Source of the DNA: Qipengyuania qiaonensis | Lineage (GTDB): Bacteria > Pseudomonadota > Alphaproteobacteria > Sphingomonadales > Sphingomonadaceae | NCBI RefSeq assembly: GCF_019711515.1 | Contig: NZ_JAIGNO010000003.1 | Coordinates: 1 to 64,000, forward strand | Length of the DNA stretch: 64,000 nucleotides | Direction: 5' to 3' | Shown here: positions 1 to 38,845 of the stretch, in pieces | Layout: every line of letters starts with the position of its first letter | How positions within the stretch are numbered: the first letter of the stretch is position 1 | Made by a program: the position numbers and the translations under genes | Notes under the pieces: generated by a model | Seen by the model: only the letters and a program-made list of their open reading frames with translations | The model's database searches: none | Told to the model about the DNA's origin: nothing

Positions 1-77
1 TAATATCACCAACCGGACGAGGCCCACACTCCGAAAAATTACGCCCCGAAGTGTGCCAAATGTTTTGACGACGGACA

Positions 78-109
78 GGGCGTGCCGTACTCAGATCGAT
101 GGCACGCCC
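78..109. terminator. Hairpin downstream of the glyoxalase gene
   Basis: A perfect 9-bp stem, GGGCGTGCC at 78-86 and GGCACGCCC at 101-109, closes a 14-nt loop just past the stop of the minus-strand glyoxalase gene. There is no T-run on the minus side, so this may be a Rho-assisted stop or a chance stem. Confidence 0.3.
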
Positions 110-123
110 CCGGGTCTTGGTTT

Positions 124-552
124 TCACTCGGGCGCATTGCACACGGCTTCGATGTTGATGCCATCCGGGTCGTAAACGAACGCGCCGTAGTAATCCTCGT
201 GGTACCGCCGAATTCCCGGAGCCCCATTGTCGGTGCCACCGGCGGCGAGTGCGGCTTCGTAGAAGTCGTCCACCTCCTGACGCGATCTGGCGATGAAGGC
301 GAAATGCGTCGCCTCGCCCACCTTGGCGTTGCCGACGATCCAGAACAGGGGCTTGTGCGCCCGGCCGAACCCGCACATCGCGCCGCCGGTCTTCTGCTGC
401 TCACCGCCTTCTTCGGCCTGCTCAGGTGGTATTGACAGCATCAGTTCGAGGCCCAGCGGCGCCAGTGCCTTCTCATAGAAGACACGCGAGCGCTCGATGT
501 CCGATACGCCGATATTGAGGTGGTCGATGATCGTTTCTTGATACGGGGTCAT
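124..552 (-). CDS. Glyoxalase/VOC-family dioxygenase-like protein
   Basis: This 142-residue protein is a single-domain member of the vicinal oxygen chelate superfamily. The N-terminus reads IDHLNIGVSDIERSRVFYEKAL, the classic first beta-alpha-beta unit, and the C-terminus ends in FVYDPDGINIEAVC, where the late metal-ligand glutamate normally lies. Such proteins are cytosolic enzymes of detoxification or ring cleavage; the substrate cannot be read from sequence. An upstream in-frame extension is possible, but the ATG at 552 has an AAGGA ribosome site at the right distance and begins where the family begins. It is divergent from a WYL regulator across a CTGACA-N5-TGTCAG palindrome and is probably that regulator's target. 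Confidence 0.85.
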   Translation of the reverse strand: MTPYQETIIDHLNIGVSDIERSRVFYEKALAPLGLELMLSIPPEQAEEGGEQQKTGGAMCGFGRAHKPLFWIVGNAKVGEATHFAFIARSRQEVDDFYEAALAAGGTDNGAPGIRRYHEDYYGAFVYDPDGINIEAVCNAPE

Positions 553-601
553 CTGTGATCCTTCGTTCCGTTGCTGTCGCGATTTGTGATAGAGAACCCT
601 C

Positions 602-618
602 CTGACAGCTCGTGTCAG
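602..618. promoter_or_regulatory. WYL-regulator operator site 1 (CTGACA-N5-TGTCAG)
   Basis: Perfect inverted repeat CTGACA (602-607), 5-bp spacer, TGTCAG (613-618), in the divergent promoter between the glyoxalase gene and the first WYL regulator. Its centre is 58 bp from the glyoxalase start codon. The same palindrome recurs at 2032, 28519 and 29360, each time beside a WYL regulator or an enzyme gene. Confidence 0.65.
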
Positions 619-641
619 CAGCGTTATGCATGTCCGCATCA

Positions 642-1328
642 ATGAAGCGCGCCGACAGACTACTTCAGATCGTCCAGATCCTGCGACGCCGGGATTGCCC
701 GACGACGGCCATGATGCTCGCCACCGAACTCGAGGTGGCACCGCGGACGATCTACCGCGACATCGCGACCCTTCAAGCCGGGCGGGTTCCGATCGACGGA
801 GAGGCAGGCGTTGGATACGTCCTGAGACCGGGATACGATCTTCCGCCGTTGATGTTCGACCCCCAAGAGATCGAAGCTGTCACGCTCGGCGCGCGCATGG
901 TGATCGAACGGGGCGATCCGGACCTTTCCAGAGCCGCCGCTGACGTTCTTGCGAAGATTCGAGCAGTCCTTCCGACCTCGGTTGGAAGCGAACTTTGGAA
1001 GGCTTCGCTGCTGGTTCCCCATCCGCTTGAGGATGCGGTCGACCTCGGACCGCATCTTCCCGAACTGCGCACAGCGATCCGCGGAAACCGCAAGCTTCGT
1101 ATCGCCTACATGGATGGCGATCGGCAAGGCACCGAAAGAACCATCTGGCCACTCGGCCTCTATCTCTACAGCCACGTCACGCTGGTCTGTTCGTGGTGCG
1201 AACTGCGCAGCGGTTACCGCGCGTTTCGATCGGACAGGATTTCGGTCTGTGAAACCCTCGATCAGCAGTTCGACGCCCAGAATGGGCGATTGCTGAGAGA
1301 GTATTTCGAGGCATCGGCGCTTCAATGA
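642..1328 (+). CDS. YafY-type HTH/WYL transcriptional regulator (1)
   Basis: This 228-residue regulator has an N-terminal winged HTH (RADRLLQIVQILRRR..., recognition helix around VAPRTIYRDIATL) and a C-terminal WYL domain (LRIAYMDGD..., YRAFRSDRI) that in this family senses a ligand. The ATGs at 630 and 642 and a GTG at 612 are all in frame. I chose 642 because the paralogues at 1342 and 29390 start with the same M-x-R-x-E/D-RLL pattern, and because 612 lies inside the operator palindrome. It probably autoregulates and controls the divergent glyoxalase through the 602-618 site. A second WYL paralogue follows 13 bp downstream, so the two are likely co-transcribed. Confidence 0.88.
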   Translation: MKRADRLLQIVQILRRRDCPTTAMMLATELEVAPRTIYRDIATLQAGRVPIDGEAGVGYVLRPGYDLPPLMFDPQEIEAVTLGARMVIERGDPDLSRAAADVLAKIRAVLPTSVGSELWKASLLVPHPLEDAVDLGPHLPELRTAIRGNRKLRIAYMDGDRQGTERTIWPLGLYLYSHVTLVCSWCELRSGYRAFRSDRISVCETLDQQFDAQNGRLLREYFEASALQ

Positions 1329-1341
1329 CCGGTGAGGTGAC

Positions 1342-2025
1342 ATGACGCGCTCCGAGCGCCTTCTGGCCATCATGCAAATGCTTCGAGCAAGGCGAGGGCC
1401 GGTGACCGCGGGCGTGATCGCGGACAGGTTCGGGGTGTCCGAGCGCACCATCTACCGCGATATCCTCGTCCTCATCGATCGGGGAGCGGTGATCCGGGGC
1501 GAAGCGGGGATCGGCTACGTCCTGGACCAGGATCACTTTCTGCCGCCCTTGATGTTCACCGCGGACGAAGCCGATGCGATCGTATTCGGGCTGCGGTATG
1601 CGACACGTCGGGGCGATACGGGCCTGTCCTGTGCAGCGGAACACGCGCTCGCGAAGATCACCTCCGTCACGCCGCCCGATCTTGCGCGATCGATGCAGGC
1701 CAATGGACTTGTCGTGCAGCCCGAGCTCGGAGCGATCGGCCAGATGGTAGGGCAGATCCGTCAGGCGATCCGCCGAGAGCACATGATCACCTTCGACTAC
1801 GTCGATCAACAGGGAACTCGGTCGCATCGCAGCGGAATGCCCGTCGCGATCGGATTCTTCGATGATGGTGCCATGCTCGCTGCCTGGTGCAACGGTCGGC
1901 AGGACTTCCGGCATTTTCGCCTGGATCGCATATCCGGACTTCATGAGCAGCCCGAACGCTTCGACAGGCCGCATCGACGCCTCCTCGCGGAATACCGCAA
2001 ACTGGAGCCGGGCATGCAGTCTTGA
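1342..2025 (+). CDS. YafY-type HTH/WYL transcriptional regulator (2)
   Basis: A 227-residue paralogue of the preceding gene: HTH at about residues 1-55 (MTRSERLLAIMQML, VSERTIYRDILVL, then the GEAGIGYVL wing) and WYL core at about 140-215 (HMITFDYVD, FRHFRLDRI). A GGTGAGGTGAC stretch precedes the ATG. It follows the first regulator closely and precedes an NmrA-type oxidoreductase whose promoter holds another copy of the same palindrome (2032-2048). Tandem WYL regulators of one subfamily may bind the same sites as homo- or hetero-oligomers; that is inference. Confidence 0.88.
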   Translation: MTRSERLLAIMQMLRARRGPVTAGVIADRFGVSERTIYRDILVLIDRGAVIRGEAGIGYVLDQDHFLPPLMFTADEADAIVFGLRYATRRGDTGLSCAAEHALAKITSVTPPDLARSMQANGLVVQPELGAIGQMVGQIRQAIRREHMITFDYVDQQGTRSHRSGMPVAIGFFDDGAMLAAWCNGRQDFRHFRLDRISGLHEQPERFDRPHRRLLAEYRKLEPGMQS

Positions 2026-2031
2026 ACGCTC

Positions 2032-2048
2032 CTGACACGAATTGTCAG
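2032..2048. promoter_or_regulatory. WYL-regulator operator site 2
   Basis: CTGACA (2032-2037), 5-bp spacer, TGTCAG (2043-2048): the same palindrome and spacing as site 1. It starts 7 bp after the second WYL regulator stops, and its centre is 52 bp upstream of the ATG of the NmrA-like gene. Confidence 0.65.
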
Positions 2049-2091
2049 TCACGGGGTCTAGCCAAGACAAAAGGCCAAGGAGCGCTTGCAT

Positions 2092-2949
2092 ATGTTCATT
2101 GTTTCGGGAGCGACGGGGCACGTGGGTTCTGCCGTTGCGGAAGCCCTGTTGCGGGACGGACACGAGGTGATCGCCATCACCCGCGATGCAGCCAACGCTG
2201 CGGCCCTGAAGGAGAAAGGCGCATCGATCGCGGTCGCCGATCTCTATGATGTCGATGCGATGCGGGATGTCTTCAGGAAGGGCAAGAGGCTGTTCCTGCT
2301 CAATCCTCCCGCCAAGCCGGACACCGATACGGATCGCGCGGAAAATGAAACCGCACGACTCCTGCTTGCAGCTGTCGAAGGATCCGGACTGGAGAAGATC
2401 GTCGCCGAGTCGACCTACGGTGCGCAGCCGGGCGAGCAGTTGGGCGACCTCAACACCCTTCACACGATGGAAGAGGGGCTGCGCGACCAGCGGGTCCCGA
2501 CCACCATTCTTCGCGCCGCCTATTACTTCAGCAACTGGGATGCGATGCTCGAAACCGTTCGCGAAGGCACATTGCCCACGATGTATCCGGCGGACCTCAA
2601 GCTGCCCATGGTCGCGCCCGCCGATCTCGGCGACGCCGCCGCCGATCTCTTGACGGCTCCGGTCGAAGAAACGGGGATCGTCCATGTCGAAGGGCCGACT
2701 CGGTACTCTTCGCGCGACGTCGCGGACGCTTTCGCTCATACATTGGGCCGAAAGGTAGAGGTGGCAGTAACGCCCCGCGACCATTGGGAGGAAACGTACA
2801 GGTCTCTGGGGTTCTCGGAGGAGGCCGCGCATTCCTACGCACGGATGACCGCGATCACGGCCGATGGCGACTATGAGATGCCGAATGAACCCGTCCGCGG
2901 CTCGACCACGCTACAGGACTACATCGATGCCCTCGTCGAGCGAGACTGA
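2092..2949 (+). CDS. NmrA-family NAD(P)-binding oxidoreductase
   Basis: A 285-residue atypical short-chain dehydrogenase. The Rossmann fingerprint VSGATGHVGSAVAEAL is at residues 4-19, followed by an NmrA-like substrate region (FLLNPPAKPDTDTDRAE..., ILRAAYYFSNW) in place of the classical YxxxK. Relatives include quinone reductase QOR2-like and redox-sensor NmrA proteins. An upstream in-frame TTG at 2086 is only 3 nt from the AAGGAG, so the ATG at 2092 (9-nt spacing) is preferred. The promoter carries the WYL palindrome. With the glyoxalase and the 28.5-kb monooxygenase and thioesterase it forms a putative stress/detoxification regulon. Confidence 0.85.
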   Translation: MFIVSGATGHVGSAVAEALLRDGHEVIAITRDAANAAALKEKGASIAVADLYDVDAMRDVFRKGKRLFLLNPPAKPDTDTDRAENETARLLLAAVEGSGLEKIVAESTYGAQPGEQLGDLNTLHTMEEGLRDQRVPTTILRAAYYFSNWDAMLETVREGTLPTMYPADLKLPMVAPADLGDAAADLLTAPVEETGIVHVEGPTRYSSRDVADAFAHTLGRKVEVAVTPRDHWEETYRSLGFSEEAAHSYARMTAITADGDYEMPNEPVRGSTTLQDYIDALVERD

Positions 2950-3292
2950 GATCGGCACGACCTCAGTCCGCCTTGCCGTAGCGGGCTGCCAGTTCGAGAA
3001 CCACGATGGCAGCAGCCGACAGGAGGAGCTGCGTCGGTGCCGCGCCGGAGAGGCGGTCGCGCTTACCGCGGAGCCAGACAATCCTAAGCACGTCGGCGCC
3101 ATAGCAGTCTATTCGTGCCGGGATATCCAGATCGGATACCTTCGTCGCCGCGATGCCGAGTGGCTGACCGATCAACTCATGGAAGGAACCGGCCTCTCCG
3201 CGTCCATCGTTTCGATCGCGCCGCGTGCCAGGCCATTCGACCCTCTTGTCGTGATGATTCGTATCGAATGTAGTGCGCTTCAGGTTCGATGA
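2927..3292 (+). CDS. Stand-alone HIRAN-domain protein
   Basis: This roughly 121-residue protein matches the HIRAN fold almost end to end: LAVAGCQFENHDGSSRQEELRRC, then GEAVALTAEPDNPKHVGAIAVYS and IQIGYLRRRDAEWL. HIRAN domains bind DNA ends or stalled forks and are usually fused to helicases or nucleases, but stand-alone copies are common in mobile DNA. The ATG at 2927 lies inside the preceding NmrA-like gene (23-bp overlap), implying translational coupling; no strong Shine-Dalgarno is visible. Its 3' end overlaps the end of the convergent MarR gene by 13 bp. Confidence 0.65.
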   Translation: MPSSSETEIGTTSVRLAVAGCQFENHDGSSRQEELRRCRAGEAVALTAEPDNPKHVGAIAVYSCRDIQIGYLRRRDAEWLTDQLMEGTGLSASIVSIAPRARPFDPLVVMIRIECSALQVR

Positions 3293-3801
3293 GTCTGCTC
3301 CAGGCTCAGGGCCAGTTTGCCGAGAAGCTCGCCGAGCCTTTCACGTTCCCCATCGTTCAATCCGGCCAGAAGTTGCATCTCGAGCGCCATGTCGTCGCGG
3401 AAGGCCTGCTCGGTCTTCCTTCGACCCCTCGGCGTCAACTGGACGAGCATGCTGCGCGCATCGTCGGCACTGGGCTCGCGTCGCACCAGTCCAGCCCTTT
3501 GCAGACGGCTCAGACGGTCGGTGAGACCGCCCGATGAGATCATCAGGGACCTGTAGAGTTCGGTCGGTCGAAGACGATAGGGCGGGCCCGATCGAAGGAG
3601 GGTCGAGAGTACGTCGAATTCTCCCCGGTCCAGTCCATGGCCGGCGAAGACTTTCTCGATCGGCGCGCCGACAGCATGGACGATCCAGCGCGCGCGTCCG
3701 AGGACGGCCATCGGGCTGGTGTCGAGATCGGGCAGCTCCCTGTCCCACTGCTCGCGTCGCTCGGCCACCCGGTCACCGAACGAAACTGATTGTCTTGACA
3801 T
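3280..3801 (-). CDS. MarR-family transcriptional regulator
   Basis: This 173-residue protein has a central winged helix (LDRGEFDVLSTLLRSG, LMISSGGLTDRLSRLQRAGLVRR, DDARSMLVQLTPRG), the diagnostic MarR/HTH_20 pattern, flanked by helices for dimerisation. It has an N-terminal extension of about 30 residues relative to minimal MarR proteins. The ATG at 3801 is supported by CGGAG 7 nt upstream on the minus strand. It is divergent from the DoxX-like gene, and two TCTYGACATCRAGA sites in the shared promoter suggest autoregulation plus control of the neighbour. Confidence 0.88.
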   Translation of the reverse strand: MSRQSVSFGDRVAERREQWDRELPDLDTSPMAVLGRARWIVHAVGAPIEKVFAGHGLDRGEFDVLSTLLRSGPPYRLRPTELYRSLMISSGGLTDRLSRLQRAGLVRREPSADDARSMLVQLTPRGRRKTEQAFRDDMALEMQLLAGLNDGERERLGELLGKLALSLEQTHRT

Positions 3802-3833
3802 CGAGACATCTCCGATTTATCTCGACATCAAGA
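3793..3833. promoter_or_regulatory. Pair of MarR operators
   Basis: Two related near-palindromes, TCTTGACATCGAGA (3793-3806) and TCTCGACATCAAGA (3820-3833), are 27 bp apart between the divergent MarR and DoxX-like genes. The first covers the MarR start codon and Shine-Dalgarno region; the second lies about 35 bp upstream of the DoxX-like ATG. Confidence 0.6.
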
Positions 3834-3868
3834 TAACAACGATGTGACGAAGAGCAAGGACCCCGTTG

Positions 3869-4288
3869 ATGAACGAATACGATCCGGAAGAGCCACCCAA
3901 CGGAAAGGGCGGGGTTGTGTGGGCCGGCCGGGCGCTGACGGCGCTCTTCGCGCTGTTCATGCTCGGGGCATCGATCGCACCCAAGCTCCTTGGACTCGAT
4001 GTTGCCGGCGATACGCTCGAACCTCTAGGCTGGCCCCGCGATGCTGCCTTCGCGATCGGCATCCTCGAACTTGCATGCGTTGCGCTGTATCTATGGCCAC
4101 GAACCAGCGTTCTGGGCGCCATCCTGATGACCGGCGTGCTAGGTGGTGCGATGGCGACCCAATTCAGGGTCGACGCGCCGCTGCTCTCCCATTCGCTGTT
4201 CGGCATCTATCTGGGTCTCGCGATGTGGGGCGGGCTATGGCTCCGCGATCCGGCGCTGCGTCGGCAGTTCCCCTGGAGGGTCCGCTAG
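3869..4288 (+). CDS. DoxX-like inner-membrane protein
   Basis: This 139-residue protein is predicted to cross the membrane four times: hydrophobic stretches start at about residues 19 (VWAGRALTALFALFMLGASI), 60 (AAFAIGILELACVALYLW), 82 and 105. It resembles the DoxX-like family, small membrane proteins of uncertain role often induced under oxidative or electrophile stress. The ATG at 3869 has AGCAAGGA 8 nt upstream; a TTG just before it is less likely. Divergence from a MarR gene with shared operators suggests derepression by a MarR ligand. Confidence 0.75.
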   Translation: MNEYDPEEPPNGKGGVVWAGRALTALFALFMLGASIAPKLLGLDVAGDTLEPLGWPRDAAFAIGILELACVALYLWPRTSVLGAILMTGVLGGAMATQFRVDAPLLSHSLFGIYLGLAMWGGLWLRDPALRRQFPWRVR

Positions 4289-4327
4289 AACGAGCTGGTC
4301 AACCGCTACAGCAGAAGGAAGTGAACG

Positions 4328-4555
4328 ATGTCGTTCCAAGCATATCTGGATACGATCGAAAACAAGACCGGTCTCGATGCCGACGGTCTCAGGAAGGCCG
4401 CCGAGGCCAACGGGCTGGCCGAGAACGGCAAGCTCAAGCCGGGAACGAAGGCCGGCGACGTGGTTGCCTGGCTGAAGGCGGAGCATGACCTTGGGCACGG
4501 CCATGCGATGGCAGTATATGCGCTCCTGTCCGGGAAGCGGAAGCCTGGCGACTAG
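4328..4555 (+). CDS. DUF4287 family protein
   Basis: A 75-residue soluble protein that matches DUF4287 from end to end: MSFQAYLDTIENKTG, then LKPGTKAGDVVAWLKAEHDLGHGHAMAVYALL. The family is widespread, short and of unknown function; the LGHGHAMA motif is its hallmark. It follows the DoxX-like gene by 39 bp with AGAAGGAAGTGAACG before the ATG, so it is probably in the same MarR-controlled transcript. Confidence 0.85.
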   Translation: MSFQAYLDTIENKTGLDADGLRKAAEANGLAENGKLKPGTKAGDVVAWLKAEHDLGHGHAMAVYALLSGKRKPGD

Positions 4556-4641
4556 AATCGGCGGACGCTCGTATGGACCGTGAGGGCAGATCGCAGCCCC
4601 TCGCACATCGCATCCTTCGACTGCAGACGTGGAAGGACAGA

Positions 4642-5745
4642 ATGATAATCGCATTCAAACGGTTGGCAGGCCTCGTCATGCTATCGGCGACCTGCTTTTC
4701 GACCCCGCTACAGGCTCAAGTGCCTGAAACGCCGGCAGCGGTACCTTGGGCGGTGCCACCGACCATTCGAATAGAGCTATTGTCACTTACGTTCGACAAT
4801 CTGGGAACATCACTCAGTGGCATACTGTATGTGCCGGAGGGTGCGCGCGAACTGCCGGTCGCGGTGGTCCTGCATAGCGCGGCGGGCCCTTCGCAGGACG
4901 CCGCGCTCTATGAACACCTCAAACAAATGTTACCGCCCCTGGGTATGGCCGTATTCGTGTTCGACCGCCGCGGAAGCGGAGCTTCAGGCGGTGACGATCC
5001 GCGCAGCACCGACTTCGATGTGCTCGCGAGCGACGCGGTCGCGGCCCGCGCACGGCTTGCGATCCTGCCGCAGATCGACCCGAGCCGCATCGGTTTCTGG
5101 GGTCTCAGCCAAGGAGGATGGATAGCGCTGCTCGCTGCGGCCAGGATGCCGGACGCCGCGTTCGCAATCTCGGTTTCCGCCCCGATCACCGCGGCCGACG
5201 TCCAGATGAACTACGCCGTCGAGAACATTCTCCGGATCAAGGGGTACAGTCAGGGCGACATCGACGAGGCGATCGACGCTCGGCGCGCTGTCGACGATTA
5301 CACGCGGGGGCATCTGGATCGCGCGAGCGCAGAGCGCTTCGTCGCGGCCGCGCGGCTCCGGCCGTGGTGGAAGCACATCTACCTGGAGGGGAACATCGAC
5401 GATCCGACATGGCTCGGGCAGATCGAGGCGGATCCGTTGCGCGCGCTGGACGGTTCGAGGGTTCCGACGCTCATGATCTTTGGTCAGGCCGATCCCTGGA
5501 TCCCCGTCGGGGCGTCGATAGCCGCGCTCGACGGGTCCGCTGCCAGGCGTCCGAACGTCTCCGTCCATGTCGTGGCCGGGGCCGATCACATGATGATGCT
5601 GGGCGTCGACCCGAAGGAGCAGATCGACCCGGCGGCCTTCGACGGACAACGGCCGGACGCGAGTGAATACTTCGGGCTGCTCGCAAGTTGGCTGGAAAGG
5701 CGTGGCCTCACGACAAGGACGGCGACCCAGCCCAGCCCGCGTTGA
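4642..5745 (+). CDS. Secreted alpha/beta hydrolase (dienelactone hydrolase/S9-like)
   Basis: A 367-residue alpha/beta-fold hydrolase with a Sec signal peptide (MIIAFKRLAGLVMLSATCFSTPLQAQ). The nucleophile elbow is GLSQGG (serine around residue 153), the oxyanion-side motif is VFDRRGSG, the acid probably lies in FGQADPW, and the histidine is in AGADHMMM. This makes it an esterase or peptidase acting in the periplasm; the substrate is unknown. The ATG at 4642 was chosen over 4573 because it follows GGAAGGAC and starts the signal peptide. A second secreted hydrolase follows. Confidence 0.82.
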   Translation: MIIAFKRLAGLVMLSATCFSTPLQAQVPETPAAVPWAVPPTIRIELLSLTFDNLGTSLSGILYVPEGARELPVAVVLHSAAGPSQDAALYEHLKQMLPPLGMAVFVFDRRGSGASGGDDPRSTDFDVLASDAVAARARLAILPQIDPSRIGFWGLSQGGWIALLAAARMPDAAFAISVSAPITAADVQMNYAVENILRIKGYSQGDIDEAIDARRAVDDYTRGHLDRASAERFVAAARLRPWWKHIYLEGNIDDPTWLGQIEADPLRALDGSRVPTLMIFGQADPWIPVGASIAALDGSAARRPNVSVHVVAGADHMMMLGVDPKEQIDPAAFDGQRPDASEYFGLLASWLERRGLTTRTATQPSPR

Positions 5746-9610: not shown

Positions 9611-11368
9611 CTACCGACCGAGGCCGCGCTTGCGGCCCAGCATGAGGTCGAGGCCGCCGCCGCTGCGCACCACGCCCGCCACTTCGCGACCGAGTTGGCG
9701 TTCGAGACCGTTTGACCAAGGGACGAGGCGGAAGCCCAAGCCGTCGTCGATCATGGCAAAACGGCCGGAAGCAAGCCCGAGGCGTCGGCGGACGGTGCCG
9801 GCGACTTGGTCGCCAGTCTGCGCCGGTCGGTAGGCCAGCCCGGTTTCGCTCGCGATCTTCGTGGCGACGCTGTGCAGTTCGCGCGTTTGCAACCGGTCGA
9901 GCAGGCCGCGTTCGAACACCGTGCGTTCGCCAAAGCGGCGCGCCAGTCCCTCGGTCGCGAGATGATCGGTACGCGCGTCCATCGCGCGGCGCACCTCGGC
10001 ACCGAACCCAGCATCGACGATAGCCTTGCCGCGCTCGATCAGTCGATGGTCGAGCCAAGTCGCACCTTTTGCTTTGACCTGACTTTCGAGATCGAAATCC
10101 GACCGTGTGGCAAGGAAGGGGATCGAGCCTTTGCCATCGCGCCGTTCGATCGCGCGTAGCTCGACGATACCGCCCAGGTCCGGGCTGTGCTCCAGCGCCT
10201 CGATGCCAGGCAACCGGACATGGTGGGTGCGCCCGTCGGTGGCGTCGATCACGGCATAGGCGGAGCCGGTCAGTTCGTCGTGAAGTCCCTTGTCGATCAG
10301 CCGTCCGGCGATGGGCTTTTCCGGCGCACCGGTGACGACGGCGTAGCTATCGAGTGCCCGATCCTGACCTTGCTCTTTGAGCGCCCGACCTATCCTGCGG
10401 ATGATATCGCCGCGTGTGCCTAACTCACGAAGCTTTTCACGCACGCCGTCGGCCACCGCCCACTGGCCAGGCTCACCTTCAGCGGCGAGCCCCATCGTCT
10501 CCAGATGCTGCAGGCGCCCGATCATCAGACGGCGCAGGCGCGGATCGTCAGGACCGGAGCGCTCGGGCCGCAGATCGATCACGCCCAACTCGTCGGCGAC
10601 GCGGTCGATTGCGTAATCCAGGCGCGTCCAGCGTTCGGCGGTCACCTCGCGATTAAGTGCGCGCTGCACCTCATGCTCGGGTTTCGGTCCAAGCTCGGCG
10701 AGGGCCAGTTCCTCGGCGCGCGACCGCAGGCCGTGGCCGATATAGTCGCGCGAGATGACGAGATCCTCGCCGCGCTCATCGACACCGCGCACCAGCAGAT
10801 GGACGTGCGGATTGTCGGTGTTCCAATGATCGACCGCGACCCAGTCTAGCCGCGTGCCGAGATCGGCTTCCATCTGGCGCGCGAGGTCGCGGGTGTATTC
10901 GCGAAGATCGGTGAGCTCTGACGCGTCTTCGGGCGAGACGATGATCCGGAAATGATGCCGGTCGTCCTTACAGCGGTCGGCGAAGTTGAGGTCGTCGGCT
11001 TCGTCGCCGTTCGCATCGAACAGGCCTGCGGGCGAGCCGTCGCGGGTGACACCTTCGCGCTTCAGATAGGCTAAATGCGCGGTCAGCGGCGCCATTCGCC
11101 GCCCGCCGATCCGATGGCGCACCGGCAGCGCCTTCACCAGCACCCTTCGGCCCGAGCCGAACAGGCGTCCGCGCGCGAAGGATGTGCGACCCTTGCCGAA
11201 GCTCGATTGCCCGCGCTTACGTGGTCCGCCCCAGCCAGAACGTTTGGTCCCGCCATGCAGGGCGGCAACGCGCAGCACCTCGGCAACCAGTCCGCGCGTG
11301 TTCCGGCCTTGCGCCTTGCCGCGCGTCGCCTTGCCCGGCCGAATGCTGAAGTCGTTGTCTTCGGTCAC
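9611..11368 (-). CDS. DUF3363-type conjugative relaxase (RlxS/VirD2-like)
   Basis: A 585-residue relaxase that would nick oriT and pilot DNA. Features are an arginine-rich N-terminus (DFSIRPGKATRGKAQGRNTRG), a candidate catalytic tyrosine in HLAYLKREGV (about residue 101), HHFRIIVSPED at 138-148, and the HUH-type metal motif DNPHVHLLVRG at 186-195, then the long DUF3363 C-terminal region. A GTG start at 11368 is chosen because relatives begin with a D-D-F-x-x-RPG sequence; the Shine-Dalgarno is weak. It is followed by TraG and preceded by the lytic transglycosylase, a conserved arrangement in alphaproteobacterial integrative elements. Confidence 0.93.
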   Translation of the reverse strand: MTEDNDFSIRPGKATRGKAQGRNTRGLVAEVLRVAALHGGTKRSGWGGPRKRGQSSFGKGRTSFARGRLFGSGRRVLVKALPVRHRIGGRRMAPLTAHLAYLKREGVTRDGSPAGLFDANGDEADDLNFADRCKDDRHHFRIIVSPEDASELTDLREYTRDLARQMEADLGTRLDWVAVDHWNTDNPHVHLLVRGVDERGEDLVISRDYIGHGLRSRAEELALAELGPKPEHEVQRALNREVTAERWTRLDYAIDRVADELGVIDLRPERSGPDDPRLRRLMIGRLQHLETMGLAAEGEPGQWAVADGVREKLRELGTRGDIIRRIGRALKEQGQDRALDSYAVVTGAPEKPIAGRLIDKGLHDELTGSAYAVIDATDGRTHHVRLPGIEALEHSPDLGGIVELRAIERRDGKGSIPFLATRSDFDLESQVKAKGATWLDHRLIERGKAIVDAGFGAEVRRAMDARTDHLATEGLARRFGERTVFERGLLDRLQTRELHSVATKIASETGLAYRPAQTGDQVAGTVRRRLGLASGRFAMIDDGLGFRLVPWSNGLERQLGREVAGVVRSGGGLDLMLGRKRGLGR

Positions 11369-11606
11369 GACACCACCACTTTCCGCCGAAAATGAGGGAC
11401 GGTGCCATTCGAGGCGTTGTTTTTGTTGCCTTTTTCCTTCCGAGCGGCACGCTCGTCGACCGACGCCCCCATGGTAAGCCAAGCAAAAGCCGCGCTTTTC
11501 CGGCGAAACGGGGTGCACCTTGTATCTTGCAATCGTTTCCTACCCGGTTTTCCAGCTTCTCCTCCTCTCTTCACTTGAGGACACAATGCGAGGTGGACGG
11601 GCGAGA

Positions 11607-20325: not shown

Positions 20326-20996
20326 CGAGGTCCGAGCGGCAGTTCTGGTAAACCGACCGGGTCGTCTGCGATCCCGTAGAGGCCGTACATTCCGTCGATG
20401 AATTCGCGTTGCCCGCCATAGCTTGGATGGCGGATCGCAGTAACTTCTGTATCCAGTTCAGCCAGCGCGAGATGTGCATCGCGTCCGATCGCAACGATAC
20501 GGCGGGGCTGCACCATCGATACCAGCGCCTGTAGCAGAGGCCAGGTCGCTTCACGCTCGGCGCGGCTATGGCAGCGATTGGACATTGGATCATCCGCCTC
20601 ATGCGGATGAAAGGGAAAGACATTCCACAACATGACTGGCTGTCCGATACGGCCAAGCACCTGCCATACGATTGCGGCAGTGCGTTCGGCAATTTCCGGC
20701 CCCTGCGTGGCACGCTCCAACGCGATACCGCCCATCAGTGCCGATGCATGGGTAAGATGCACCTCGTCGGTCAGCGGCACCCCAGTGCGACGTCCGCCGC
20801 GATACCCAAGATCGCGGGCAATCCAGATCGTTTCGACATGCGCATCGAGCGCAGCTTCCAGCATGCCCTGGAGGTTGGACCGGCGCCGCGCCGCAGCATC
20901 GCGGCGGTCATGGATGGAACAGCGGTCGCGCCATGGGTTGAATACCGAGGGCAATTTCGCTGCCGCCAATGCCGATACGAAGGTCTTGGGGGTCAT
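20295..20996 (-). CDS. Uracil-DNA-glycosylase-superfamily protein
   Basis: A 233-residue protein with the landmarks of this superfamily: FNPWRD near residue 19, IARDLGYRGGRRTGVPLTDE at 59-78 (equivalent to the GExPG active-site loop, with the usual acidic residue replaced), LWNVFPFHPHE, and IRHPSYGG near the end, matching the HPS loop. It may excise deaminated or modified bases, or merely bind them. It overlaps the MazG stop by 4 bp in the minus operon. Altered residues in the water-activating loop mean activity should not be assumed. Confidence 0.65.
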   Translation of the reverse strand: MTPKTFVSALAAAKLPSVFNPWRDRCSIHDRRDAAARRRSNLQGMLEAALDAHVETIWIARDLGYRGGRRTGVPLTDEVHLTHASALMGGIALERATQGPEIAERTAAIVWQVLGRIGQPVMLWNVFPFHPHEADDPMSNRCHSRAEREATWPLLQALVSMVQPRRIVAIGRDAHLALAELDTEVTAIRHPSYGGQREFIDGMYGLYGIADDPVGLPELPLGPRYAATAKALA

Positions 20997-22174
20997 TGCG
21001 GCAATTCCTTAATGCGCAAGCGACGGCGGTCGAAATCGATCGTGATTCGCGCCCGTCGGTTTTTCTGGAGGAAGCGGAAAGCAGCATAACCCTGGAGAAT
21101 TGCTTCCTCCCAGAGCCACAGCGGACAGCGGTCAGCCTCGTAACCGGCGACGAATTGGCGGACATGCTTGAGCATGTCCAGCGGAAGTCCGCCTCGTTTG
21201 ACGTCTTCGAAAAAATTGAGTTGCTGCGCTTGACCGAAAAGCCAGGAAGTGACCCCTTCCTCGATCAAGATGGCGCGCGCACCATCCTCGGCTTCGTCAA
21301 GCTTCGGGTCACTCTTTCGTTTAAGTCGAAGCAGAGCGCGGATCACTGGTGACCAGCCCAGCACCGCGACATAGGCGTAGTGAAAGACATCGTGGAACCG
21401 ATAGTCGTCGGCTTCGATGGCATTGTCGGTCAGCCTATCGCCGACATAGACCCCGCGCGAACGCTGGAAGACATAATCGCGACCCCGTACGTTGCGCTCG
21501 TAGATATCGATCTGCATCGATCGGGGGAGCTGCTCCTCGGTGTCTTTGTCGGCATCAAAGGCAGGCGGGTAGATGCGTTCGCGCGGCCATCGATCAAAGA
21601 TCTTCTGCAAGTTCTTGATCGCAGCCGCCTCAATGGTAATGCCTGAGTCGGTCGATGCGCGAATGACACAACGCATTACAGCGATGAGCCGTTCGGCCAC
21701 TTCGGTGCGGTGCCGAGTTGAATTACCTCCTTCGATTTCCCGCGCGAGAAGTCCGACCTCGCCAGCCAGGGCGAGCAGGCTGTGTTCGAATTCTGGCATG
21801 GGCGCTTTGGCGAGTGGAATGTGCGCTGGTTGTAGGGCGTGCAGACTAAGACTTCCGTTTGCGCCCGCGGCGTATTCGCCATCTCTCTCGAGCGCAGCGG
21901 CCGCGATGTCGCTCAATATCAAGCGATGGCGCCGGGCGATTGCGGCCAGATACCACAGAACGTCACCGATTTCTTCAGCGACGGCTTCGGCATAGCCAAG
22001 ATAGGAGGCGGCATCGCGCTGTTTCTTCTTGGCTTCGGCGAGTAGACTGCCAGTTTCGCCGAAGAGGCCTAGCATAGTGAACCCGACAGTGCCGGAACCT
22101 TTGCGCTGGTCGGTCCGCGCTGCCTCGCTCGCATAATGATCGACTGTTAGCGCCTCAAATTCGTCTTTGATCAT
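20993..22174 (-). CDS. MazG-type nucleotide pyrophosphohydrolase with MazG C-terminal domain
   Basis: A 393-residue protein. The N-terminal all-alpha NTP pyrophosphohydrolase half has GLFGETGSLLAEAKKK and AVAEEIGDVLWYLAAIAR with the metal-binding ExxE...EExxD pattern. Residues of about 125-205 look like a degenerate repeat of the same fold (ALAGEVGLLAREIEGG, but the EExxD is lost). The C-terminal part (NVGDRLTDNAIEADDYRFHDVFH-like, ARAILIEEGVTSWLF, WEEAILQGYAAFRFL) matches the MazG C-terminal domain of phage- and island-borne homologues. It would hydrolyse (d)NTPs or alarmones. Flanked by overlapping RHH and glycosylase genes. Confidence 0.78.
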   Translation of the reverse strand: MIKDEFEALTVDHYASEAARTDQRKGSGTVGFTMLGLFGETGSLLAEAKKKQRDAASYLGYAEAVAEEIGDVLWYLAAIARRHRLILSDIAAAALERDGEYAAGANGSLSLHALQPAHIPLAKAPMPEFEHSLLALAGEVGLLAREIEGGNSTRHRTEVAERLIAVMRCVIRASTDSGITIEAAAIKNLQKIFDRWPRERIYPPAFDADKDTEEQLPRSMQIDIYERNVRGRDYVFQRSRGVYVGDRLTDNAIEADDYRFHDVFHYAYVAVLGWSPVIRALLRLKRKSDPKLDEAEDGARAILIEEGVTSWLFGQAQQLNFFEDVKRGGLPLDMLKHVRQFVAGYEADRCPLWLWEEAILQGYAAFRFLQKNRRARITIDFDRRRLRIKELPQ

Positions 22175-25101: not shown

Positions 25102-26136
25102 TCATCGACCGATGAACATTTCGGCATCTTCAGGCGTTAGCTGGACCCGGATATCTGCCCGCATGGCATCAAGCCCAAGCTGGCGGAGGTCGTCGTTGAA
25201 ATCGCCCAGCTTGGCATCGAGCGGGAGCGCGTCGATCCCGGCTTCTTGCGCTCGCGACTCAAGGTCGTCGTATGCACCGTGACCGGCGGAATCGTTCTCG
25301 CGGGCGATGTAAAGGCGGCGCAGCATCGGCGGAAACGCGACCGCAGTGAGGTGGGCAGCCGATGACGCTGCAATCATCGGCATGACGGGCAGAATCTGCC
25401 GCAGCGAGATCATCGTCTCGATCCCTTCGCCGGCGATCATGGTTGCGCCCGGTGATCCGAACCGCACGCCGTGCCCCAGCAGATCGCCCATCGCGCGGCG
25501 CGGTGTCGCGATGTTTGCCTTCGATGTGCCGAACGGATCGAGCCAGGTGCGGTGCAGGCCGGTCAGCGTGCCGTCATTGTCGCGCACCGCTGCTATCAAT
25601 GCTGGAAACGCTTCGGGCGTATCGGGCGGATCGTCCCGGTCGGCGCGATACCAGCAATTGGGATGGAAGCGGAGGCACCCGCAGTTGCGCAAATCGACGA
25701 TGCCACGATTGCGCAAATAGGTCTCAGCCAGCGTGCCGTGGATCGGCCGCGAAATCGCCCACAACCGCCGTGCTGCCTCAGGCGAGCCGGTCGGTGCGGG
25801 CGTGCGCCGCGCGGTGTCGGATGGTTCGGGAACGGGAAGCGACAAGAAGTGCCGCGCCTCTTCGAGCGTCTCGGCAAGCGAGCCGAGCCGTCTGTTCGCG
25901 GCGATCATATCGAGCAGGTCGCCATGCTCGCCGGTGGCGGCGTCGGTCCATTTGCCTGTAGCGCCTTTGCCGGATTCGGGGCCGGTCAGCCGCACGAACA
26001 TGCTGCGGCCCGGCGTGCCTTCGACATCGCCGATCAGCCAGTAGCGGCCCTGACGGCGACCCTCCGGCAGATAATGGCGGCAGACGCTTTCGGCGTTGCG
26101 CGCAAGCTGGCGCGCGAGGTCGGATGCCTGGTGCAT
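25102..26136 (-). CDS. Toprim-domain protein (phage/plasmid primase-like)
   Basis: A 344-residue protein with an N-terminal zinc-less primase-like region (SVCRHYLPEGRRQGRYWLIGDVEG, KWTDAATGEHGDLLDMI) and a C-terminal Toprim domain: ATMIAGEGIETMISLRQILP gives the conserved glutamate and RRLYIARENDSAGHGAY stands for the DxD region. Such proteins are constant members of alphaproteobacterial element backbones, possibly priming DNA after transfer. The ATG at 26136 follows GAAGGAGGATGCG, an excellent ribosome site. The 13-bp hairpin upstream may tune read-through from the ParB-like gene. Confidence 0.9.
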   Translation of the reverse strand: MHQASDLARQLARNAESVCRHYLPEGRRQGRYWLIGDVEGTPGRSMFVRLTGPESGKGATGKWTDAATGEHGDLLDMIAANRRLGSLAETLEEARHFLSLPVPEPSDTARRTPAPTGSPEAARRLWAISRPIHGTLAETYLRNRGIVDLRNCGCLRFHPNCWYRADRDDPPDTPEAFPALIAAVRDNDGTLTGLHRTWLDPFGTSKANIATPRRAMGDLLGHGVRFGSPGATMIAGEGIETMISLRQILPVMPMIAASSAAHLTAVAFPPMLRRLYIARENDSAGHGAYDDLESRAQEAGIDALPLDAKLGDFNDDLRQLGLDAMRADIRVQLTPEDAEMFIGR

Positions 26137-26158
26137 CGCATCCTCCTTCAGACGGAAA

Positions 26159-26190
26159 GAGGGTCCGACGCTTGGGGGCGTCGGACCCTC
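26159..26190 (-). terminator. Strong hairpin between ParB-like and Toprim genes
   Basis: A perfect 13-bp stem GAGGGTCCGACGC (26159-26171) / GCGTCGGACCCTC (26178-26190) with a 6-nt loop, followed on the minus strand by TTTCC and, within 25 nt, the Toprim Shine-Dalgarno. It could be a partial terminator or an RNA-processing/stability site in the operon. Confidence 0.6.
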
Positions 26191-26218
26191 GAAGTGAGCA
26201 GGTCCGGGGAGCGGGAAC

Positions 26219-28321
26219 CTACTCGGCGGCGACGGCGTAGGGGGTATCGCCCTCGACCGCCTCATCATCGCCCAATGGCTCGTCATCCGCCACGGACCCT
26301 GTGCCGTCGTCCTCCGCCGATTGCACTTCGCTCTCGGCCTCATCGGCGGTTTGCTCGTCGGTATCGTCCAACTCGGACGCGACCGGCGCGGTGCGCAGCG
26401 GCTCGGGCAGCCAACCGGTGTCCGCGATCAGTTCCTCGGCGCGTTCGGCCTGGGCATCCTTCTTCAGGCCTTCGATACCCTCGGCGGCTTCCTCGCCCTT
26501 CGCCTCGCGCACCGCCGCGACGATCCGTGCCTTGGTGACCTTGCCGAGATAATTCTCGGCAGTGGTCGTCCAGCCCGCATCGACCATGTCGAGCCCGATA
26601 TCGGTCGCGAGCCGCTCGGCGTGGGCGAGCGCACGCGGCCTGCGGTTGTAGGCCTCGACCGCGGCGTTGACCGTCATCGCTACGCAATGCGCGAACAGTG
26701 CGTTCCGGAGCTTCACCGGCATGGCGAGGATCGCGTCCCACAGTTGCTCGCTGTCGTCGGGCAGCGCGCCCGCGAACGCCTCGTGCCGTTCGGTCAGCGC
26801 CTCGGCGTAGGGCGTTTCGCCGAGACCCGGCGCTTGGCTGCCGAAGAACACGCATTTGGCATCGAGTTCGAGGCAGCTGTCGGGCGCGTAGCTGTAGAAC
26901 AGCTTGAGCGCCAGCGCGTGGAGGCAGGCGCAGAACGCCGTCCCGTAGCTGCCGCCGACCGCGAGCCGCAGCGCGACCGTGCGATGCGCGGTGAGTTCGG
27001 TGACGAGCCGGTCGGGTATTGGATGCAGAGTGTCGTCCTCATCCTCGCCACCCGAAAAGTCCTCGGACTGGCGCTGACTGTTGGCAGTGCTGGCCTTCGA
27101 CCACACAGCATCGATCTCACCGTCATCCTCAGGCTCGACCTTCTCCTCGTCCTCGGGCCGGACATAACCGCGATCCACCCGCAGCCGCCCGGCATGATCG
27201 ACGCTGACGAACACGCCCGCCCGGGCGATGTCGTCCTCGTCGTAGCGCACCGGCCGATCGTCGATCGCATCGATGGCGGTCTCGATCTCGCCGAGCCGTT
27301 CGTCGACCTCGTCGGGCAGTTCGGGCGCATCGGCATATTCGGCTTCGAGCGTTTCGAGCTCGGCCTGCAATGCATCGCGCGTCGCCTGCTCCTCTTCGGT
27401 CAGCTCGGGCCGCTCGCCCGAAATGCGCCGCAGCCCGTAAGTATGGCCGTAGGGGAAATCGAGGCCGACCTCGATCCACTTCCAGCCCTCGGCGCGGATG
27501 GCTTCGGCTTGCTCGCTGAGCTTCTCGGTAACGAGCATCTCGACCAGCCCGACATGCTCGAGCCAGCCGCCATCGTCGCTCTCGAACAGGTCGCGCATGA
27601 CCGCACCGCCCGCTTCGACATAGGCATCCATGCCAATGAACAGCGCGCGCTTGTCCGACGCCCGCACCGAATGCTCGGTCAGCATGCGGCGGATCTGATA
27701 GGGCTGATCGTTGTAGCTGCCGCGCACCGCGTCCCAGACCTGCGCCTGCCGCTCATGGTCGGGATTGACGGTGAACGCCATCAGCTGATCGAGCGTCATC
27801 GCGTCTTCGGCGAACGCATCGAGCAGGGCTTCGCCGACGCTCGCGAGCTTCAGCCGCTGCTTGACCACATTGGCCGAGACGAAGAACGCGGCAGCGATCT
27901 CCTCCTCGCTCATGCCCTTCTCGCGCAGCGCCTGGAAGGCGCGGAACTGGTCGAGCGGATGCAAGGGAGCGCGCTGGATGTTCTCCGCGAGACTGTCCTC
28001 TTCGGCATACCCGCCTTCGCGCACGATGCAGGGTACGGGCGCGGTCTTGGGCAGCCGCTTCTGCTTCACCAGCAGTTCGAGCGCGCGATAGCGGCGCCCG
28101 CCCGCCGGCACCTCGAACATGCCGGTCTCCTTGCCGTCCGCATCGGTGACGGCGCGCACGGTGATGCTCGCGAGCAGCGTACGCCGGGCGATGTCCTCGG
28201 CAAGCTCCTCGATCGAGACGCCCGCCTTGACGTGGCGGACATTGGCCTGGCTCAGCACCAGCGTGTCGAACGGAATGTCCCGCGAGGGGCTGAGCGCGAT
28301 GGTCTTGACTGACTTGGTCAT
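26219..28321 (-). CDS. ParB/RepB/Spo0J-like nuclease-domain protein of the element backbone
   Basis: This 700-residue protein has an N-terminal ParB-like domain (IPFDTLVLSQANVRHVKAGVSIEELAEDI, then VPAGGRRYRALELLVKQK, EDSLAENIQRAPLHPLDQFRAFQALREKGMSEEEIAAAFFVSANVVKQRLKLA). These are the Box I/II and HTH regions. A long acidic coiled region and an uncharacterised C-terminal half follow. Chromosomal ParB is about 300 residues, so this is the large plasmid/ICE subfamily with no ParA beside it; a role in element maintenance or regulation is likely. The start has GGAGAAGACCC upstream and a leader shared with the DUF932 gene. Confidence 0.92.
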   Translation of the reverse strand: MTKSVKTIALSPSRDIPFDTLVLSQANVRHVKAGVSIEELAEDIARRTLLASITVRAVTDADGKETGMFEVPAGGRRYRALELLVKQKRLPKTAPVPCIVREGGYAEEDSLAENIQRAPLHPLDQFRAFQALREKGMSEEEIAAAFFVSANVVKQRLKLASVGEALLDAFAEDAMTLDQLMAFTVNPDHERQAQVWDAVRGSYNDQPYQIRRMLTEHSVRASDKRALFIGMDAYVEAGGAVMRDLFESDDGGWLEHVGLVEMLVTEKLSEQAEAIRAEGWKWIEVGLDFPYGHTYGLRRISGERPELTEEEQATRDALQAELETLEAEYADAPELPDEVDERLGEIETAIDAIDDRPVRYDEDDIARAGVFVSVDHAGRLRVDRGYVRPEDEEKVEPEDDGEIDAVWSKASTANSQRQSEDFSGGEDEDDTLHPIPDRLVTELTAHRTVALRLAVGGSYGTAFCACLHALALKLFYSYAPDSCLELDAKCVFFGSQAPGLGETPYAEALTERHEAFAGALPDDSEQLWDAILAMPVKLRNALFAHCVAMTVNAAVEAYNRRPRALAHAERLATDIGLDMVDAGWTTTAENYLGKVTKARIVAAVREAKGEEAAEGIEGLKKDAQAERAEELIADTGWLPEPLRTAPVASELDDTDEQTADEAESEVQSAEDDGTGSVADDEPLGDDEAVEGDTPYAVAAE

Positions 28322-28340
28322 GGGTCTTCTCCATGACGGG

Positions 28341-28518: not shown

Positions 28519-28536
28519 CTGACATAATGCTGTCAG
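28519..28536. promoter_or_regulatory. WYL-regulator operator site 3
   Basis: CTGACA (28519-28524), 6-bp spacer, TGTCAG (28531-28536). Its centre is 52 bp upstream of the monooxygenase start codon, the same distance as site 2 from its gene. Confidence 0.62.
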
Positions 28537-28579
28537 CAGCACTGGTGCACTATGCCTTCCCAACAAGACGGAGGCAAAA

Positions 28580-28891
28580 ATGACAACGCAGTTCAACGAC
28601 AGACGGGTGATGCTGGCTGAGTTCCCAATCAAGTCGGAAAAGCGGGATGAATTTCTCCAGTATACCACGGAAAATCTGGCGCTCAGCAGATCGGCGGCGG
28701 GCAACATCGAATTCGACATCCTCATTGACGAAGCCCGTTCTGACCAGGTGTTCTTCTATGAAGTCTGGGAGTCGGCGGAGGCTCAAAGGGCTTACATGGC
28801 ATGGCGCGTTGAACGCGGAGACCTCAATATTCTCATGACGTTTCTGGCCGGCGAGCCCAAATTCACTGCATTGCGAAGGATCGAGAGCTAA
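28580..28891 (+). CDS. Antibiotic-biosynthesis-monooxygenase (ABM) domain protein
   Basis: A 103-residue ferredoxin-like-fold protein of the ABM/YgiN group: VMLAEFPIKSEKRDEFLQYTTENLALSRSAAGNIEFDILIDEARSDQVFFYEVWESAEAQRAYMAWR. Members act as quinol monooxygenases or heme-degrading enzymes without cofactor; the exact substrate is not predictable. GACGGAGGCAAAA precedes the ATG. The promoter carries WYL operator site 3, tying it to the regulator at 29390. Confidence 0.85.
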   Translation: MTTQFNDRRVMLAEFPIKSEKRDEFLQYTTENLALSRSAAGNIEFDILIDEARSDQVFFYEVWESAEAQRAYMAWRVERGDLNILMTFLAGEPKFTALRRIES

Positions 28892-28894
28892 GGG

Positions 28895-29317
28895 TCAGGC
28901 CACAGCCTTTTGGATAGCGGAAAGTCTGAGGCTTGCGGTTGCGCGCGCCAGGGTCTTGCCATCCGCATCGGCCAACTCGGCTTCAACAAAACCAATAGTC
29001 TTTCCCAATTGGACGACACGGGCTTTGCCGATCAGCCTTCCTGGCTTGGCCGGCGCCAAATACTGCACGTTCAGGTCGATCGTCGATGGGTATATCCGCG
29101 CATCGGTGGCGATCAACACCGCAGGGCCCATACAATCGTCGAGCATGGCCGATAGAAAGCCGCCTTGCACATTGCCTGCGGCGTTGCGGAATTCCGGCTT
29201 GGCGGTGAAGGCGATTTTCACCCTCCCGCCGTCGCGCTCCGCTTCCAAAATGTCGAGGCCCAGCAATTTAGCGCAGGGTGGCGTCGGAAAGCGATCAAGG
29301 ATTGTCGGGATCGACAT
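28895..29317 (-). CDS. PaaI-type hotdog-fold thioesterase
   Basis: This 140-residue protein has a single hotdog domain: EFRNAAGNVQGGFLSAMLDDCMGPAVLIATDARIYPSTIDLNVQYLAPAKPGRLIGKARVVQLGKTIGFVEAELADADGKTLARA. The GNVQGGFLSAMLDD stretch is the PaaI active-site helix. It would hydrolyse acyl-CoA thioesters. It is convergent with the ABM gene (3-bp gap) and divergent from a WYL regulator; the operator at 29360 lies 54 bp from its start. Confidence 0.88.
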   Translation of the reverse strand: MSIPTILDRFPTPPCAKLLGLDILEAERDGGRVKIAFTAKPEFRNAAGNVQGGFLSAMLDDCMGPAVLIATDARIYPSTIDLNVQYLAPAKPGRLIGKARVVQLGKTIGFVEAELADADGKTLARATASLRLSAIQKAVA

Positions 29318-29359
29318 CGCAGTCTCCTGTCGGTTGGTGCGCTTGTGTTTAAAGTAGCG

Positions 29360-29383
29360 CTCCTGACAGCCTTGTGTCAGGAG
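29360..29383. promoter_or_regulatory. WYL-regulator operator site 4
   Basis: CTCCTGACA (29360-29368), 6-bp spacer, TGTCAGGAG (29375-29383): the longest of the four palindromes, with perfect 9-bp arms. It lies between the divergent thioesterase and regulator genes and ends 6 bp before the regulator ATG, so it overlaps the ribosome site. Confidence 0.68.
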
Positions 29384-29389
29384 TGCCCG

Positions 29390-31361: not shown

Positions 31362-31380
31362 GACTTTTCTCCGCGACGAT

Positions 31381-38813: not shown

Positions 38814-38845
38814 ATATGACAAGGCCAGAAGGAGTTGCAAGACCC

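Follow-up and report, generated by a model that had tools for sequence, protein, structure and literature searches.

A CTGACA-N5/6-TGTCAG palindrome as the probable operator and promoter box of YafY-type HTH_11-WYL regulators

Organization of the locus

The window analysed here, a 64,000-nucleotide stretch of Qipengyuania qiaonensis DNA (contig NZ_JAIGNO010000003.1, assembly GCF_019711515.1), carries three genes for WYL-domain regulators and four copies of the palindrome CTGACA-N5/6-TGTCAG, arranged in a left and a right module (Table 1). The palindrome centre lies 58 bp from the start codon of the glyoxalase gene (ATG 552, minus strand), 52 bp from that of the NmrA-like gene (ATG 2092), 52.5 bp from that of the ABM-domain gene and 54.5 bp from that of the hotdog thioesterase gene. 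The first-pass annotation had reported the left pair of palindromes at 602-618 and 2032-2048, with the same two distances, next to two tandem WYL regulators and with further copies near 29 kb; the exact sequences are found there, the coordinates reproduce the distances, and the tandem genes (642-1328 and 1342-2025) both encode HTH_11 and WYL domains. A scan of the whole genome (3,391,104 bases in 33 contigs) recovered four copies of CTGACA-N5/6-TGTCAG, all within the window, so the motif, read earlier as the mark of a regulon, is not frequent at random positions; the reversed control pattern gave no match in the same 3.39-Mb genome. Only three WYL-domain genes (E up to 1e-8) are present in the genome, namely those adjoining the palindromes. 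Among nine other genomes of the genus, one has a single such palindrome, which indicates that the WYL/palindrome modules are no genus trait.

Four copies within 29 kb of one mobile element might be attributed to chance or to the duplication of a single promoter fragment. When the window was shuffled 100 times and any spacer from 4 to 7 was accepted, the mean was 0.01 palindromes and the maximum 1, and no further copy appears in the window when up to two mismatches are permitted at N5 or N6. Moreover, the spacers and flanks of the four copies differ, the same layout recurs in distant bacteria, and the four target families are mutually unrelated by Pfam, so that the targets are not copies of one duplicated gene. 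Such an origin therefore has practically no probability.

The window resembles a conjugative element, with relaxase/DUF3363, Toprim/DUF7146 and TraC/TraG recognized by Pfam and ParB-like and DUF932-like genes by eye. Both WYL modules, and with them all three WYL genes of the genome, are cargo of this element, and the ABM/thioesterase/WYL3 module (28519-30097) lies between a ParB-like gene and the following gene of the element, as though it had entered the backbone by insertion. The element also carries a multicopper oxidase gene (38792-40669), which is possible copper-resistance cargo, and a gene for a MazG-like protein with a MazG_C domain (20996-22174), possibly serving defence or nucleotide house-cleaning. 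To the right of the NmrA-like gene, a divergent MarR-type regulator and a DoxX-like gene (3280-3801, 3866-4288) form a second regulator pair beside the WYL module.

Table 1. Features of the window: putative operators, regulators, predicted targets and predicted promoter elements
Feature	Positions	Strand	Remarks
Putative operator 1, CTGACA-N5-TGTCAG, CTGACAGCTCGTGTCAG	602..618		between divergent glyoxalase (VOC) gene and WYL1
Putative operator 2, CTGACA-N5-TGTCAG, CTGACACGAATTGTCAG	2032..2048		gap between WYL2 and NmrA-like gene
Putative operator 3, CTGACA-N6-TGTCAG	28519..28536		upstream of ABM-domain gene
Putative operator 4, CTGACA-N6-TGTCAG	29363..29380		between divergent hotdog thioesterase gene and WYL3
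WYL1, HTH_11-WYL regulator, 228 aa	642..1328	+	PF08279 and PF13280; AlphaFold model
WYL2, HTH_11-WYL regulator, 227 aa	1342..2025	+	PF08279 and PF13280
WYL3, HTH_11-WYL regulator, 235 aa	29390..30097	+	PF08279 and PF13280
Glyoxalase/VOC protein, predicted target of operator 1	124..552	-	PF00903, E 1.5e-12
NmrA-like NAD(P)-binding protein, predicted target of operator 2	2092..2949	+	PF05368, E 5.1e-22
ABM-domain protein, predicted target of operator 3	28580..28891	+	PF03992, E 3.5e-11
Hotdog thioesterase, predicted target of operator 4	28895..29317	-	PF03061, E 1.3e-12
Predicted -10, glyoxalase promoter, TATCAC	586..591	-	TA at offset 27 from operator 1
Predicted -10, NmrA promoter, TAGCCA	2059..2064	+	TA at offset 27 from operator 2
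Predicted -10, thioesterase promoter, TAAACA	29346..29351	-	TA at offset 29 from operator 4
Conjugative-element genes	9614-11518, 25105-28322, 30168-31499, 52666-55209

The WYL regulators and their structure

WYL1, WYL2 and WYL3 all score above the Pfam cut-offs for an N-terminal HTH_11 domain and a WYL domain, and WYL2 and WYL3 share 38% and 41% identity, respectively, with WYL1. The NCBIfam library provides no name for any of the three, and a YafY family annotation is carried by 32 of 40 plasmid relatives of WYL2 (40 listed of 237 matching records). The AlphaFold model of WYL1 (mean pLDDT 88.4, pTM 0.60) ends in a helix at residues 213-227, and its helix 34-46, which bears R35, Y38, R39 and D40, is interpreted as the winged-HTH recognition helix; these four residues are invariant in a 32-row alignment. 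R193 and R196 are invariant in all 32 rows as well, and anionic-ligand binding is therefore possible; in activators of the DriD/PafBC type the effector is single-stranded DNA.

The best match in a PDB sequence search is PafBC (6sj9, E 4.2e-22), followed by DriD, and the R-x-F-R pair of the WYL domain is conserved in the alignment to PafBC 6sj9. PafBC, the closest PDB match by sequence, is heterodimeric or fused, in contrast to the homodimer proposed for WYL1-3, and governs a DNA-damage regulon. By structure, most of the WYL1 model can be superposed on BrxR, CapW, PafBC and DriD (Z about 10 to 14), BrxR and CapW being among the top matches (Z 14.3 and 12.9); 213 residues align to PafBC 9fnd_Y (Z 12.9, rmsd 8.7) and 213 to DriD 8tp8_A (Z 12.5, rmsd 14.6), and since the rmsd values are mostly large, the domains appear to be placed differently in the model and in its matches. 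The wHTH-linker-WYL fold of the DriD/PafBC type is present in the model. The C-terminal WCX domain is absent, as the alignments stop about 93-105 residues before the ends of DriD and PafC, where WYL1-3 end; DriD, at about 330 aa, has this extra C-terminal part, which the 227-235 aa of WYL1-3 lack.

Occurrence of the palindrome beside WYL relatives

Two sets of relatives, neither selected by the DNA motif, were surveyed. The first consists of named relatives (the best 80 of 543) retrieved with peptide patterns that cover a portion of the recognition helix, and it is therefore biased towards like helices; the second comprises all 72 genes that the family profile detects, with E up to 1e-30, among 240 genomes belonging to the class, with the source genome excluded. 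The exact 12-base palindrome occurs near 51 of the best 80 of 543 relatives, 38 times within 150 bp upstream of the WYL start and 13 times farther upstream, up to 1.6 kb, and near 43 of the 72 family genes (28 within 150 bp upstream, 15 farther upstream). Thirty control palindromes with permuted arms reached at most 1/80 and 0/72. The relaxed form CTGNCA-N5/6-TGNCAG is found at 67 of the same best 80 of 543 and at 55 of the 72, and among 60 permuted relaxed controls there were no occurrences within 150 bp upstream and at most four farther upstream. Relaxed sites are missing in 13 of these 80 best-matching relatives (of 543) and in 17 of the 72 family genes; even the nearest tree relative of WYL3 (L214, 61% identical) is devoid of one. 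Four of the misses (L119, L121, L124 and L125), which have a WYL2-like helix and layout, carry a 10/12 site at or just behind the end of the WYL gene.

The palindrome recurs beside WYL relatives across Proteobacteria, and in some metagenome-derived records from other phyla. Sphingomonas aliaeris has, on a plasmid, a YafY-family gene whose product shares 52% identity with WYL2, followed by an NmrA-family gene; the 65-bp gap between them contains CTGACAAGAATTGTCAG (N5), which is placed with respect to the regulator just as operator 2 is. In the taxonomic family of the source, the ABM-WYL3 pair recurs with an N6 palindrome (L106), and another locus (L108) has an N6 palindrome between a VOC gene 84% identical to that of the window and a WYL gene 63% identical to WYL1; spacing can thus change, as this pair of the left type flanks an N6 site. 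A DNA-level search with window positions 1-5000 among plasmids found nothing.

Specificity was assessed in the 240 genomes of the class, where the exact N5/N6 palindrome is present in 44 of the 54 genomes with the WYL family versus 29 of the 186 without it (Fisher p 3e-19), and the reversed control pattern in 4 of 54 versus 11 of 186 (p 0.75); genomes lacking the family tend to be smaller, a bias that the low control counts answer only partly. Of 17 non-family WYL genes (those missed by the family profile) in 86 genomes, 14 have no site of at least 11 matches in about 4 kb. Two of the other three, L266 (G435) and L264 (G451), encode longer WYL proteins with a family-like SxRTIYRD recognition helix and have the site near their start, in one case an exact one. 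Because non-family WYL genes with this helix carry the site, the code may go with the helix and extend to longer WYL proteins.

These distributions bear on the idea that the palindromes belong to another regulator, with the WYL genes being mere neighbours. The 29 genomes that have the palindrome and lack the WYL family would fit this idea, but the exact palindrome lies near 43 of 72 family genes even though the partner genes span many unrelated families, 14 of 17 other WYL genes are without it, and, as described below, spacing and arm variants track the WYL tree and the recognition helix and background palindromes are without a phased -10. A different owner of the site is accordingly very improbable. 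The earlier assignment of the palindrome to a WYL subfamily as its operator thus appears well founded, given the 43 family genes with a site, the S. aliaeris plasmid copy and the 14 non-family genes devoid of one; the related claim that the motif defines the subfamily is supported by its presence near independent relatives, and the motif is not peculiar to this organism.

The exact palindrome alone was rejected as proof of function, as 41 of 60 fetched 3-kb loci have no WYL-family profile match; in the taxonomic family of the source, 24 of 30 fetched palindromes have no WYL gene in their 3-kb locus. One sequence, CTGACAACAACTTGTCAG, recurs in several genera of this taxonomic family (L094, L100-L104, L111, L112), with neither a WYL gene nor a phased -10 nearby in these loci; perhaps it is conserved coding sequence.

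Spacer length, arms and half-sites

Spacer length follows the protein clade: on the protein tree, the labels of 105 N6 and 26 N5 rows require 9 changes, versus at least 20 in 200 shuffles (FastTree; 56 of 157 inner branches are open). WYL2-like regulators that have a site use N5, often behind the regulator gene, and among regulators with the SKRS[VI]YRD helix, one arm frequently, though not invariably, reads CTGCCA. The apparent direct repeats at enteric and rhizobial YafY-VOC sites were discarded as a separate arrangement, since CTGACAG and CTGTCAG differ only in the central base; for the same reason, the half-site can be written as CTGNCAG, and its orientation there is uninformative. A third half-site, 11 bp upstream, accompanies several alphaproteobacterial sites. 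Six loci (L023, L038, L040, L052, L054 and L069) display, upstream of the WYL gene, three CTGNCA-type half-sites in steps of about 11 bp, the first two in direct order and some copies with one more mismatch. Such triple half-sites possibly reflect the binding of more than one dimer.

Promoter architecture and phase

The palindrome stands at a fixed distance from a -10-like element on the target side, defined as the side away from the WYL gene (downstream if co-oriented), whether or not a real gene lies there. A TA is found at offset 29 from the first base of the palindrome in 45 of 59 N6 sites made non-redundant at 65% protein identity, a level at which some shared promoter ancestry remains; the background has a mean of 1.58 per offset and a largest value of 14. 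At this phase, 22 of the 59 sites read TANNNT, versus a background mean of 0.32. The N5 sites show a TA peak at offset 27 on the target side (7 of 19; mean over offsets 0.67, peak included), and on the WYL-gene side the phase is weaker (13 of 40 N6 sites). In the window, the phased TA is present for three of the four targets (glyoxalase, NmrA and thioesterase), and the ABM promoter has CA instead of TA at offset 29.

If the TA is taken as -12/-11, the N6 palindrome spans about -41 to -24 with its centre at -32.5, in the middle of the -35 box. No -35 box was detected in the 45 phased N6 sites, where the best TTGACA match with spacers of 16-18 is 1.64 of 6 versus 2.47 at control positions. The layout of the DriD/PafBC type, with the site over -35 at a fixed -10 distance, is thus found for 45 of 59 N6 target sides. 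G occupies -14 in 29 of the 45 phased sites, and flanking or inner bases are constrained among the 59 N6 sites (A at 8 in 49, G at 10 in 53, A at 19 in 56 and G at 20 in 54). The possibility that an arm itself serves as the -35 box (CTGACA resembling TTGACA, with the -10 about 17 bp on) was considered and set aside: the conserved TA is found 23 bp past the first arm, and the hexamer taken at the correct spacing resembles TTGACA less than the control does.

Sixty exact palindromes fetched by pattern (30 from the taxonomic family, 30 from the class) provided a test of the phase, being split by the presence of a WYL gene in the 3-kb locus (family profile E up to 1e-8; 4 of the 19 positives are weak, E 1e-23 to 1e-27). 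A phased TA in either direction accompanies 13 of the 19 WYL-adjacent palindromes versus 2 of the 41 others (p 4e-7); when the 11 sites used to derive the phase are removed, 5 of 8 WYL-adjacent sites are phased (p 5e-4). Six of the 19 are without phase.

The fixed -10 distance and the missing -35 suggest a promoter-embedded box, for which activation is likelier than simple repression. The same operator may nevertheless work with the opposite sign, the WYL dimer acting as a repressor that sits over the -35 region of an extended -10 promoter until its ligand releases it, in the manner of BrxR, which represses through inverted repeats (PMC9122601). Placement of the site between a regulator gene and a divergent enzyme gene, as in many divergent regulator-enzyme pairs, would suit a repressor, the G at -14 hints at extended -10 promoters that fire without a -35, and fixed phasing over the -35 region would suit extended -10 repression as well. 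However, a base-exact phase and a missing -35 are not needed for repression, and DriD and PafBC, the full-length structural and best PDB sequence matches, are activators. Repression remains the weaker reading, though a serious one; activation is favoured over it by about two to one, since the layout is that of DriD and SiwR offers a parallel.

Comparison with known WYL systems

To our knowledge, WYL factors are numerous and few of them have known binding sites. According to one study, WYL proteins number more than 15,000, and DriD of Caulobacter crescentus is a WYL activator with the consensus ATACGAC-N7-GTCGTAT (PMC12340889). The spacing between its pseudo-palindromic site and the -10 is constant, the site overlaps a poor -35, G-14 is conserved, and the two DNA-binding domains flank sigma region 4 (PMC12340889). 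On that description, DriD resembles the YafY-type WYL proteins in its HTH-WYL fold over most of the model and in a site over -35 at a fixed -10 distance, and its GAC-N7-GTC core equals the core of the N5 sites described here; its ATACGAC-N7-GTCGTAT consensus and DNA-damage regulon distinguish it from WYL1-3.

SiwR of Mycobacterium smegmatis is a WYL activator whose palindrome, between siwR and the operon that it controls, occupies the -35 to -10 region; activation is abolished when two arginines three apart in its WYL domain are both replaced (PMC10693628). R193 and R196 would occupy the same positions as these two arginines. SiwR is like the window loci in having an inter-gene palindrome near the promoter and some glyoxalase-like neighbours, and unlike them in its 19-bp imperfect palindrome and DinB-superfamily targets (PMC10693628).

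CapW is a repressor. BrxR is a repressor that binds 11-bp inverted repeats with a 5-bp spacer, and this inverted-repeat binding is like the reading proposed for YafY-type WYL proteins (PMC9122601). BrxR and CapW are similar to the WYL model by structure and are located in phage-defence loci.

YafY-type HTH-WYL factors have been described beside EVE genes with VOC or SRPBCC partners (PMC7641849). In five YafY-EVE plasmid loci, a YafY-VOC arrangement is present in four, and half-sites lie in the gap behind the YafY gene in all five. In Gluconobacter oxydans, disruption of the YafY-family HTH-WYL gene GO_1816 increased rare-earth bioleaching in a screen (PMC12041372). Among the open-licence papers that capped literature listings brought up, none was found to describe the present operator for WYL/YafY proteins in its title, in the opening of its abstract or in the text consulted.

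Partner genes and predicted regulon

Partner genes were collected by script as 126 open frames, some of which are surely not genes, and were grouped by single linkage; 30 of the 45 clusters and singles were scanned with Pfam, and 12 of the 30, including two clusters of six, had no match. Representatives of two clusters (38 frames) are glutathione transferases, and those of two further clusters (24 frames) and two singles have the glyoxalase fold. Another cluster of three had no Pfam match, two of its members being publicly annotated as VOC. The remaining families include GFA (3), ABM, SnoaL, DUF1761, DUF1127, EamA and hydrolases, so that the Pfam-matched partners of the scanned set are GST, VOC, GFA and the like.

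Six palindrome-rich genomes were picked, and 21 of their 32 sites were examined. The one with the most (G605) has two WYL genes, one of them in the family, and 11 exact palindromes, of which one adjoins the family WYL gene and nine are phased. At these phased sites, Pfam identified two VOC proteins and GST, GFA, EamA and PNPOx proteins; two more phased frames had no match, and one site had no frame. In the other five genomes, 5 of 10 examined sites are phased, with frames that include PNPOx and GST. Judged from these predicted targets, the whole looks like a multi-locus regulon of small detoxification enzymes, and the nature of the target enzymes alone leads us to infer an electrophile signal; induction by electrophiles or quinones is suggested by the neighbouring genes.

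Proposed mechanism and significance

Taken together, CTGACA-N5/6-TGTCAG is probably (about 0.7) the operator and promoter box of YafY-type HTH_11-WYL regulators that act by DriD-like activation on a detoxification regulon. A homodimer would bind directly to two CTGNCAG half-sites placed 10 bp (N5) or 11 bp (N6) apart, that is, one helical turn, and the operator, at a fixed distance from the -10 of the target gene, would occupy the position of the absent -35 box. The dimer may bracket the -35 position and leave that face free for sigma region 4; once a signal is bound by the WYL domain, it would anchor RNA polymerase at an otherwise weak promoter. At divergent loci, the same site would also front the regulator gene. 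In the window, WYL1 and/or WYL2 are predicted to act on the glyoxalase and NmrA-like genes through the N5 sites, and WYL3 on the ABM-domain and thioesterase genes through the N6 sites, the regulon presumably serving the detoxification of reactive small molecules.

Being shared across the family and tied to a promoter phase, such an operator would make WYL regulons predictable by pattern search, and the phase helps to sort true sites from background palindromes. The operator also turns the question of what YafY-type proteins sense and do into a few bench tests, and the DriD mode of activation, familiar from DNA damage, would be extended to a probable detoxification response. For a wider proposal the odds appear even: the short WYL branch without WCX, in Proteobacteria and beyond, may consist of global electrophile-response activators that share one DNA code, in which CTGNCAG half-sites spaced by 10 or 11 bp cover the -35 position and stand, to the exact base, at a set distance from the -10, and with arms (CTGACA or CTGCCA), spacing and number of half-sites tuned by clade. 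If this is true, the regulons of such a one-code WYL branch would be readable from genome sequence alone.
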